The notes below the pieces were generated by a model. The model made no database searches. It was not told where the DNA came from and saw only the letters and a program-made list of their open reading frames with translations. From positions 1-35,670 of the IMG/VR virus record IMGVR_UViG_3300025120_000219: a DNA stretch of 35,670 bases; one strand, written 5' to 3'. Positions 10,366 to 24,985 of the stretch are shown here, one piece after another. Each line of letters starts with the position of its first letter. Position 1 is the stretch's first letter. Source of the stretch: a virus. The translations under genes were made by a program, and so were the position numbers.

Positions 10366-10507
10366 GGGATTGGGTGGGCAAGTTATCTATTGACTTTAGG
10401 TTTTATTATTCCTAATGTGAAAAGATAACTTTTTTGATAACAAGAATGGAAGGTAAATAAAAATGATTGCTAATACACATTTTTTTAACCACTGTTTTTA
10501 TAAAAAC

Positions 10508-10522
10508 TTGATTACAAATCAA
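10508..10522. other. attP core candidate, symmetric, tRNA-Thr anticodon-loop match
   Basis: TTGAT-TACAA-ATCAA is a perfect inverted repeat with a 5-nt centre. GATTACAAATC (10510-10520) is identical to 24946-24956, the anticodon loop and two stem pairs on each side of tRNA-Thr(UGU). Tyrosine integrases that use anticodon loops cross over in such 7-nt loops. The match is short and AT-rich, so chance cannot be excluded. Confidence 0.5.
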
Positions 10523-10566
10523 TGAGTGGATTGACAGAATATGTAAATAAGCTAGGAAAACCAATA

Positions 10567-10613
10567 GGTTTTAGAGATATAAAAAATTATATCTCTAAAA
10601 CCACTTTTTTTTT
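10567..10613 (+). terminator. Strong intrinsic terminator with 16-bp perfect stem
   Basis: GGTTTTAGAGATATAA (10567-10582) pairs perfectly with 10587-10602 around an AAAA loop, followed two bases later by nine T (10605-10613). It faces rightward and would isolate the integrase from late read-through. A second pairing of AAAACC (10558-10563) with the GGTTTT arm start could compete with it. Confidence 0.7.
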
Positions 10614-10669
10614 GCCTGTAATAAAATGGCTATTTCATTGGCTTATTTTACAGCACTCTCCTGTTGGGC

Positions 10670-10711
10670 GATAACTTTTGGATAACTTTTGGTTGATAAT
10701 TTTAAGATAAC
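10670..10711 (+). repeat. Four GATAAC-type repeats before integrase (arm sites/iterons)
   Basis: GATAACTTTT starts at 10670 and 10681, GATAATTTTA at 10695 and GATAACATCA at 10706, with starts 11, 14 and 11 nt apart, close to one helical turn each. They lie about 75-115 nt before the integrase ATG. Likely arm-type integrase sites or regulator sites. Two more copies occur at 20773 and 20785. Confidence 0.55.
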
Positions 10712-10785: not shown

Positions 10786-11916
10786 ATGACTGAACTATTG
10801 TTAAAAAAAAAGAAAAATACAGATGGCTCTATTACAAAATCTTGGAGGTTTGAGTATGTAAATGAAAAGGGAGTAAGAAAATTTAAGCAATCTAAAAACA
10901 AAGATTTTTTAAAAGAACAAGCTGAAGCTCTTGCAAAGAAAATATCCAATGTCATTAGCAAAGATCCCCTATGGCTAGATGAGTCGCATGATGCTTATTG
11001 TAAAATTTATTATCAGAAAATTTGCAATGGTCTTAGGAGTCATGCAGCATTAAAAAACCATGAAAGCTTTTATAAAAATTATATACAAAGAAAAGCACCC
11101 TTAGATTTAAGAACTATAGATGAGCAATTTGTGATTGATTGGTTGGCAAACTTAAATGCTGAAAGCGATGTCAACAACCAAACCAAAAGAAAAATATTTA
11201 ATGCTTTTAAAAACATTTATGAAGTCCATGTTCCAGGTAAAATTAAAAAGAATGTTTTCAAATCTCAAGATTATTTAAAAGATTTTGAAGTTGCTGAAAA
11301 GGACTTTGCTGAAATTGATTTTAATGTTTGGGATAACGATCAAATACAAACTATCATTAATGCTGTTGCTGATAAGCAAATAAGATTGATGTTTAGCATT
11401 ATGTTCCAAACCGCTTGTAGGCCTAGTGAAGCTAGAGCATTGTATAAAAACAATTTAAAGTTTTTAAATAACCATCCTTATATTCAGATAACTCATGCTA
11501 TTGGTGCTAACAAGGAACGCAAAAGTCCTAAGTCCAAGAATGGGGTAAGAAGAATTTATATTAGCAATACTTTGATTGACGAAATAAAAGCTCATGTTCA
11601 AACCTTGCCTGAACACCAAGATGCTTTATTTTTAAATTCAGAAAAAAAACCTGTCTGCTTGTCTGTGATGACTCAGCAACTTAATAAAGCTTTAAAAAAA
11701 TGCAATATAGATAAACTGCCAGTGGATCGTAAAACCTATTTCTTTAGGCACTTTACAGCTTCATGGTGGGGTTATTCTGGTAAGTATGAGAACCCTTTAG
11801 ACTTTGCTAGGGATTTTGGAGATGGAGATATTAACTTCATTTACAAGACATATATAGCTAAATACCAGCCAAAAAACGAAAGCAAATATTTAGATTATTT
11901 AAATAAGACCTATTAG
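10786..11916 (+). CDS. int: Tyrosine-type integrase
   Basis: 376 aa with an AAGGAAGG site. An N-terminal arm-binding-like region (1-60) precedes a SAM-like core-binding domain (about 65-165) and a catalytic domain. Visible catalytic elements: R212 (TACRPSEARALY), the beta-hairpin lysine at K249/K251 (SPKSKNGVRRIYI), R321 in YFFRHFTASWW and a C-terminal tyrosine, probably Y356 (FIYKTYIAKY). The position normally His in HxxRH is Y318, and the LGH histidine is D346 (DFGDGD). The lysine-rich start and full length argue for a working recombinase. It stands next to the attP-like region and is convergent with the XRE repressor. Role: phage integration and, with an unseen excisionase, excision. Confidence 0.9.
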   Translation: MTELLLKKKKNTDGSITKSWRFEYVNEKGVRKFKQSKNKDFLKEQAEALAKKISNVISKDPLWLDESHDAYCKIYYQKICNGLRSHAALKNHESFYKNYIQRKAPLDLRTIDEQFVIDWLANLNAESDVNNQTKRKIFNAFKNIYEVHVPGKIKKNVFKSQDYLKDFEVAEKDFAEIDFNVWDNDQIQTIINAVADKQIRLMFSIMFQTACRPSEARALYKNNLKFLNNHPYIQITHAIGANKERKSPKSKNGVRRIYISNTLIDEIKAHVQTLPEHQDALFLNSEKKPVCLSVMTQQLNKALKKCNIDKLPVDRKTYFFRHFTASWWGYSGKYENPLDFARDFGDGDINFIYKTYIAKYQPKNESKYLDYLNKTY

Positions 11917-11952: not shown

Positions 11953-12291
11953 CTAGCAACTTTTAATAGTTTTTAGACAACTATTAATATTTTTTACCAT
12001 TTGCAAAGCTGAATCTTCAGCTATCACAGAGGAAGGTAAATCTCCTATGCAATTCTGTTCTTGAAACTTTATCCCCTGCACAAAATATGTAATGTCAGTA
12101 TGTAAAGCTTCAGCTATTTGTAAAAGTCTAATGGAAAATGTTTTATTGTTTCCTGATTCGTATTTTTGTATTTGTTGGAAGGTAACATTAATTTTATCAG
12201 CCAACTTCATTTGTGAAATTTTTAATTCTTTTCTTTTCTTTCTAATTCTTTGACCAATAATTTTGTCAGCCATGCTAAACTTTATGTTCAT
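11953..12291 (-). CDS. XRE-family (HTH_3) repressor-like regulator
   Basis: 112 aa. Residues 10-70 form a Cro/CI-type helix-turn-helix domain: IGQRIRKKRKELKISQMKLADKI, then TFQQIQKYESGNNKTFSIRLLQIAEAL. The C-terminal part is short, with no peptidase domain, so RecA-dependent self-cleavage is not expected. A GAAAGGGAACA site precedes ATG 12291; an in-frame Met at residue 7 is an alternative. It lies at the end of the leftward lysogeny/recombination operon, with a 7-3-7 inverted repeat just upstream. Probably controls lysogeny, but the repressor at 16088 is a competing candidate. Confidence 0.85.
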   Translation of the reverse strand: MNIKFSMADKIIGQRIRKKRKELKISQMKLADKINVTFQQIQKYESGNNKTFSIRLLQIAEALHTDITYFVQGIKFQEQNCIGDLPSSVIAEDSALQMVKNINSCLKTIKSC

Positions 12292-24909: not shown

Positions 24910-24985
24910 TGGTGCCGCTTGTCGGATTCGAACTGACCACCTGCCGATTACAAATCGGCTGCTCTACCAAATGAGCTAAAGCGGC
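24910..24985 (-). tRNA. tRNA-Thr (UGU anticodon)
   Basis: Clover-leaf on the minus strand: acceptor GCCGCTT/AAGCGGC, D stem GCTC/GAGC, anticodon stem GCCGA/TCGGC with loop TTTGTAA (anticodon TGT, Thr), variable AGGTG, T stem GTCAG/CCGAC with TTCGAAT loop. The encoded ACCA end follows. The T stem has one A-C mismatch. It lies antisense to the late genes. Its anticodon loop matches the attP core candidate. Confidence 0.9.

Follow-up and report, generated by a model that had tools for sequence, protein, structure and literature searches.

The integrase locus and its phage

The DNA analyzed here (the window, meaning the whole stretch of 35,670 nucleotides) is a 35.7-kb IMG/VR virus record with a G+C content of 32%. 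A gene on the plus strand at 10786-11916 encodes a tyrosine integrase of 376 aa (PF00589, 2.6e-9; phrog_1 integrase, 4.8e-28) and is adjoined by a gene for an HTH_3 repressor-like regulator at 11953-12291 on the minus strand. The profile matches bear out the first-pass annotation, which had placed an integrase gene next to an attP-like region; the gene starts 75 bases after the last of the putative arm-type sites described below. The catalytic residues are R in CRPSE, R in YFFRH, and Y in YKTYIA. Tyrosine integrases usually carry the motif HxxR...H/W; in the window (11737-11854), the box is YFFRH, and a D appears to stand in the later H/W position, as it does in the relatives. As this atypical box is conserved in relatives, the integrase is probably still active. 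Integrases 81% identical to it are encoded on three contigs, L003, L004, and L005, which share 92-95% DNA identity with the window around int, and the protein is full length in all four genomes. A search of solved structures gave no match for the integrase family at E 0.001, and an integrase search among genome contigs found no relative.

The window also encodes an SU10-type portal and a head scaffolding protein. Judged by the portal, the closest annotated isolate is Pelagibacter phage HTVC106P (MN698244; 63% identical), in which an integrase is neither annotated nor matched in a profile search and a tRNA gene is also absent, whereas the window contains both. The relationship to HTVC106P, together with the attP sites of sister phages, points to SAR11 (Pelagibacter) as the host, and the window phage is probably a temperate podovirus of these bacteria, which are among the commonest in the sea. 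Its only tRNA gene, for tRNA-Thr(UGU), lies at 24910-24985 on the minus strand, and relatives L006-L009 are 91-98% identical to the window at the DNA level around it. The window is the only contig on which an attP core standing alone and the tRNA gene occur together, L003-L005 and L006-L009 each showing one of the two parts.

A candidate attP upstream of the integrase gene

At 10508-10522 lies a perfect 15-base inverted repeat, TTGATTACAAATCAA, just as the first-pass annotation had described, and no other site in the window comes within 2 mismatches of it. With 2 mismatches allowed, shuffled sequences gave an expectation of 0.70 sites, so the exact sequence is far rarer. It was also correctly recognized that 11 bases, GATTACAAATC, recur at 24946-24956 inside the phage tRNA-Thr(UGU) gene. 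Two points had been overlooked. The match to the host is longer: the 16 bases at 10508-10523 (TTGATTACAAATCAAT), which we take as the attP core, coincide exactly with the anticodon stem-loop of SAR11 tRNA-Thr(UGU). In addition, the phage tRNA departs from the core in its stem bases. The 7-base overlap is presumed to be 10512-10518 (TTACAAA), which corresponds to the anticodon loop.

Putative arm-type sites with the sequence GATAAC flank the core. On the left, they are found at 10382-10387 (inverted, on the minus strand), 10424-10429, and 10436-10441 (both on the plus strand), and on the right, all on the plus strand, at 10670-10675, 10681-10686, and 10706-10711, with a variant, GATAAT, at 10695-10700. 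The earlier claim of GATAAC-type sites to the left and right of the core thus stands, save that the inverted site starts at 10382 and not 10381. The 331 bases from 10381 to 10711 contain 6 of the window's 20 copies of GATAAC/GTTATC, with 0.19 expected, and are its densest such stretch. The layout around the core is real and is conserved in relatives where these are covered. The three GATAAC sites on the right are invariant and the GATAAT variant is altered in L003; on the left, the outer two sites are kept in L003 and L005, and the middle one is kept in L005 and reads GAGAAC in L003. The L004 contig begins just left of the core, and the left sites are therefore not covered there.

The core is kept in L003, L004, and L005, with a change in L005 at 10522, the last base of the inverted repeat. 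In the alignment of these three contigs with the window, all 15 columns at 10507-10521 are invariant, compared with 9 of the 35 directly to the right of the core and 113 of the 124 beyond the hypervariable stretch. On this alignment, the invariant core adjoining a hypervariable stretch is the kind of pattern expected from selection on a recombination site. The hypervariable stretch (10524-10546) lacks tRNA sequence and takes the place that a tRNA 5' half occupies in sister phages. That it might itself be a decayed tRNA 5' half was considered and rejected, as its similarity to one does not exceed that of shuffled sequences (p 0.56-0.77). Between the core and the right arms, a hairpin of 16 pairs is followed by a run of T in a terminator-like arrangement (10567-10602); at this position, sister phages have a different hairpin, AGCCGAA...TTCGGCT.

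The tRNA-Thr(UGU) gene of SAR11 as the probable target

A total of 85,000 genomes were scanned for tRNA genes containing TTGATTTGTAATCAA, the core as it appears on the opposite strand, and the matches listed include many Pelagibacteraceae and also other bacteria. As the same anticodon arm occurs in other bacteria, the core alone cannot name the host. In Pelagibacteraceae, the tRNA-Thr gene reads GCCCTTGTAGCTCAGCTGGTAGAGCAATTGATTTGTAATCAATAGGTCCGCGGTTCGAATCCGTGCGGGGGCACCA, and what the window attP shares with SAR11 tRNA-Thr(UGU) is the 16 bases ATTGATTTGTAATCAA, which are the anticodon stem-loop and nothing beyond it, so the symmetry of the core is the symmetry of the anticodon stem. Judged by these matches, host tRNA-Thr(UGU) is the better candidate partner for the core than the phage tRNA-Thr with its 11 bases. 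Some SAR11 strains carry the stem ACTGA/TCAGT instead and would fit the core less well.

The 1.38-Mb single-contig SAR11 genome G067 contains 32 tRNA genes, among which tRNA-Thr is represented by one UGU and one GGU gene, and the pattern of the tRNA-Thr(UGU) gene was matched in 296 of 397 SAR11 genomes, in 295 of them as a single copy. By the rules of decoding, loss of tRNA-Thr(UGU) should leave ACA codons unread, and we infer that this unique gene is essential.

The proposal that integration targets a host tRNA-Thr gene at its anticodon loop is supported by the 16-base match to SAR11 and by the sister attP sites that contain the 5' half of this gene. Among the 397 SAR11 genomes, no match to the integrase was found at E 1e-8 in a search that does find relatives of 41% identity in virus records, and neither a lysogen nor a prophage junction of the window lineage was found. 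Orphaned tRNA-Thr 5' halves were also sought in SAR11, with one match, in G189. The possibility that this marks a prophage of the window type was rejected, as the insertion is an unrelated 8-kb element with another recombinase. The insertion point of this element (L541; G189:C1, 6500-14660) is the tRNA-Thr anticodon loop. An orphan tRNA-Thr 5' half borders the element on one side and an intact tRNA-Thr on the other, and its genes include one that is primase/AAA-like and one for a 495-aa protein without a Pfam match, which by eye looks like a tyrosine recombinase. In eight further SAR11 loci (L229, L246, L250, L259, L281, L295, L300, and L307), a second tRNA-Thr 3' half lies 0.8-6.4 kb downstream of the intact gene, preceded in several of them by similar AT-rich sequence; these extra 3' halves would be small elements or remnants at a hotspot. 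Given the G189 element and the extra 3' halves, elements other than the window phage insert, in both orientations, at the anticodon loop of SAR11 tRNA-Thr(UGU), making this loop a real attachment site.

Sister phages carry half of a SAR11 tRNA gene

More distant integrases, 32-41% identical to that of the window, come from phages with a tRNA 5' half in their attP. In these sister phages, the core is found upstream of int and is continued by the 5' half of tRNA-Thr(UGU) or tRNA-Asn(GUU) from SAR11, on the minus strand. The 15-base core by itself is too unspecific to serve as a query against virus records. A pattern scan of IMG/VR yielded 42 contigs in which only a tRNA-Thr 5' half is joined to the core, and in 30 of these a homologous integrase gene follows downstream on the same strand at a distance of 0.2-1.7 kb; the scan also yielded 78 complete tRNA-Thr genes, of which one has such an integrase. 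When the search instead started from the integrase, a tRNA-Thr 5' half was found at 23 loci, a tRNA-Asn 5' half at 10, and a whole tRNA-Thr at 2; a few loci had no core, and the core without a tRNA half was confined to the window lineage (the window, L003, L004, and L005).

Judged by their attP sequences, integration of the sisters would join the phage 5' half to the host 3' half and so rebuild the target gene, with the element supplying its new 5' end and promoter. The sisters that rebuild the target in this way contain no tRNA genes. The window lineage, unlike the sisters, lacks the 5' half of the target, and the window has instead a whole tRNA gene 14 kb away.

Other arrangements occur within the integrase family. 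L460, L461, L465, L467, and L470 encode a homologous integrase, with the attP core and tRNA half missing from the intergenic region upstream; by appearance, the attP stretch of L460 has been cleanly deleted. In L496 (5014-5088) and L498 (5137-5211), a complete tRNA-Thr spans attP, with a 3' half unlike that of the SAR11 gene, and after integration of these phages both junctions could contain a full tRNA. The loci with a tRNA-Asn(GUU) 5' half in attP (L473, L479, L480, L484, L489, L494, L495, L499, L502, and L503) form a branch that, from sequence, would represent a switch of target within one integrase family.

The phage tRNA-Thr(UGU) gene

The phage tRNA-Thr(UGU) gene is complete, includes an encoded CCA, and has the anticodon stem GCCGA/TCGGC. 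Among portal relatives, an ARAGORN scan detected a tRNA gene, the same tRNA-Thr(UGU), in L006-L009 only, which are the four closest that cover the region (95-99% portal identity), and a pattern scan added tRNA-Thr genes at the same place in L507, L508, and L511, whose structural genes are 72% identical in DNA. On the portal tree, the tRNA is spread over more than one branch, and its distribution needs two changes. From the D-arm to the variable loop, the tRNAs of the window and L507 are identical, and the changes in the acceptor and T-stem keep pairing, implying that the phage tRNA is maintained as a working tRNA. A promoter scan found no sigma-70-like promoter before the gene.

The attP and the phage tRNA gene have the same orientation and lie 14.4 kb apart, and if the phage tRNA were accepted as a target by the integrase, recombination between the two would delete part of the genome. 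The anticodon stem of the phage tRNA is GCCGA/TCGGC, compared with TTGA/TCAA in attP and the host. On an otherwise unrelated 41.5-kb virus contig, L513, the tRNA-Thr is identical to that of the phage over 76 bases except for two anticodon-stem pairs (ACTGA/TCAGT). We tentatively suggest, as a possibility that falls short of an even chance, that the altered pairs spoil the core-binding sites and thereby shield the phage tRNA from its own integrase, with loop and function kept; two paired stem changes are few, and conservation of this stem in the L507 clade is biased, as the pattern used to find that clade required GCCGA/TCGGC.

A proposed mode of integration and its alternatives

We propose that the region from 10382 to 10711 is an attP through which the window phage integrates into the single tRNA-Thr(UGU) gene of its host, and that the phage tRNA replaces the gene destroyed in the process, which would amount to tRNA-dependent lysogeny; we put the probability of this reading at about 0.74. 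The integrase would bind the GATAAC arm sites, and strand exchange would take place within the 7-base anticodon loop of host tRNA-Thr(UGU). As the sequence common to attP and the host is limited to the 16-base anticodon stem-loop, the tRNA would be rebuilt at neither junction and the host gene would be destroyed. The sequence flanking the core is not tRNA on either side and accordingly predicts no functional tRNA at either junction: one would consist of the SAR11 tRNA-Thr 5' half, the core, and AAGTTTTTATAAAAACAG, and the other of the right side of the window, the core, and the tRNA-Thr 3' half. The phage tRNA-Thr(UGU) would then take over for the host tRNA, and lysogeny would depend on it.

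It is conceivable, if unlikely, that the attP functions as described and that the phage tRNA-Thr serves lytic growth, by supplying codons or by replacing host tRNAs cut by defense nucleases, its agreement in isotype with the target being a coincidence. Such reasons account for the tRNA genes of many phages (PMC10865867), and in the L507 clade the tRNA is present on a short contig where no integrase is seen. However, the sole tRNA of the phage agrees exactly with the target in isotype and anticodon, and the sisters that rebuild their target are without tRNA genes. A codon-supply role is also unsupported by the use of Thr codons, which is not unusual: ACA makes up a fraction of 0.40 of them in the window, compared with 0.49 in the tRNA-less HTVC106P and 0.44 in SAR11 loci.

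Somewhat less probable still is that the core is a relic, the tRNA 5' half having been lost and integration at tRNA-Thr abandoned, so that the phage would now be lytic or use another site. The five contigs that retain the integrase with no attP core upstream, and the failure to find lysogens in 397 SAR11 genomes, would be consistent with this. A relic would not be expected to show the invariance of the core next to a stretch as variable as the one adjoining it, the retention of most arm sites, or an integrase that is full length in four genomes. Finally, the inverted repeat and GATAAC sites might be operators for int or neighboring genes rather than an attP, as int begins just downstream of the right-hand sites and has a repressor-like gene as its neighbor, but this is very improbable given that the core is the anticodon arm of a host tRNA and that homologous integrases have the same core, in the same place, fused to half of that tRNA gene.

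Comparison with known systems

In plan, the locus resembles the att/Int system of phage lambda, with a core between clustered arm-type sites, here putative, and an integrase gene adjoining attP. In a lambda-type attP, the integrase binds the arm sites on either side of the core through its N-terminal domain. The lambda attB, however, lies outside any tRNA gene, and lambda has no phage tRNA (PMC10865867). A closer likeness is to tRNA-dependent lysogeny, defined in 2024 in actinobacteriophages, with the mycobacteriophages Fionnbharth, LeBron, and Gaia and Gordonia phages as examples (PMC10865867). This mode of lysogeny is defined by three features: the short core lies within an essential tRNA gene, integration does not rebuild that tRNA, and the phage encodes a tRNA of matching isotype (PMC10865867). 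The window has a tyrosine integrase, a short core, no predicted rebuilding of the tRNA, and a complete tRNA of the same isotype. The parallel extends to relatives with a long core and no tRNA, as Boilgate has a long core without a tRNA and its relative Fionnbharth a short core with one (PMC10865867). The window phage differs from the actinobacteriophages in being a marine podovirus and in having sisters that carry the 5' half of the tRNA rather than the 3' half. In addition, experiments in mycobacteriophages have demonstrated that a short core goes together with a cognate phage tRNA (PMC10865867), whereas for the window both integration and the need for the tRNA are deduced from sequence.

In the open-access literature, with work on SAR11 and pelagiphages judged by title, we found no report of tRNA-dependent lysogeny in marine phages. 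The authors who defined it ask how common it is outside actinobacteriophages and leave open the order of events (PMC10865867). Membership of the window phage in this group, previously known from actinobacteriophages, appears to be the best explanation of the sequence data, and it offers a candidate reason why a small marine phage should carry just one tRNA gene. The sisters, which have kept the 5' half and have no tRNA gene, provide a clear state for comparison, so whether gain of the tRNA preceded or followed loss of the attP half is a question that can be tested by sequence alone.
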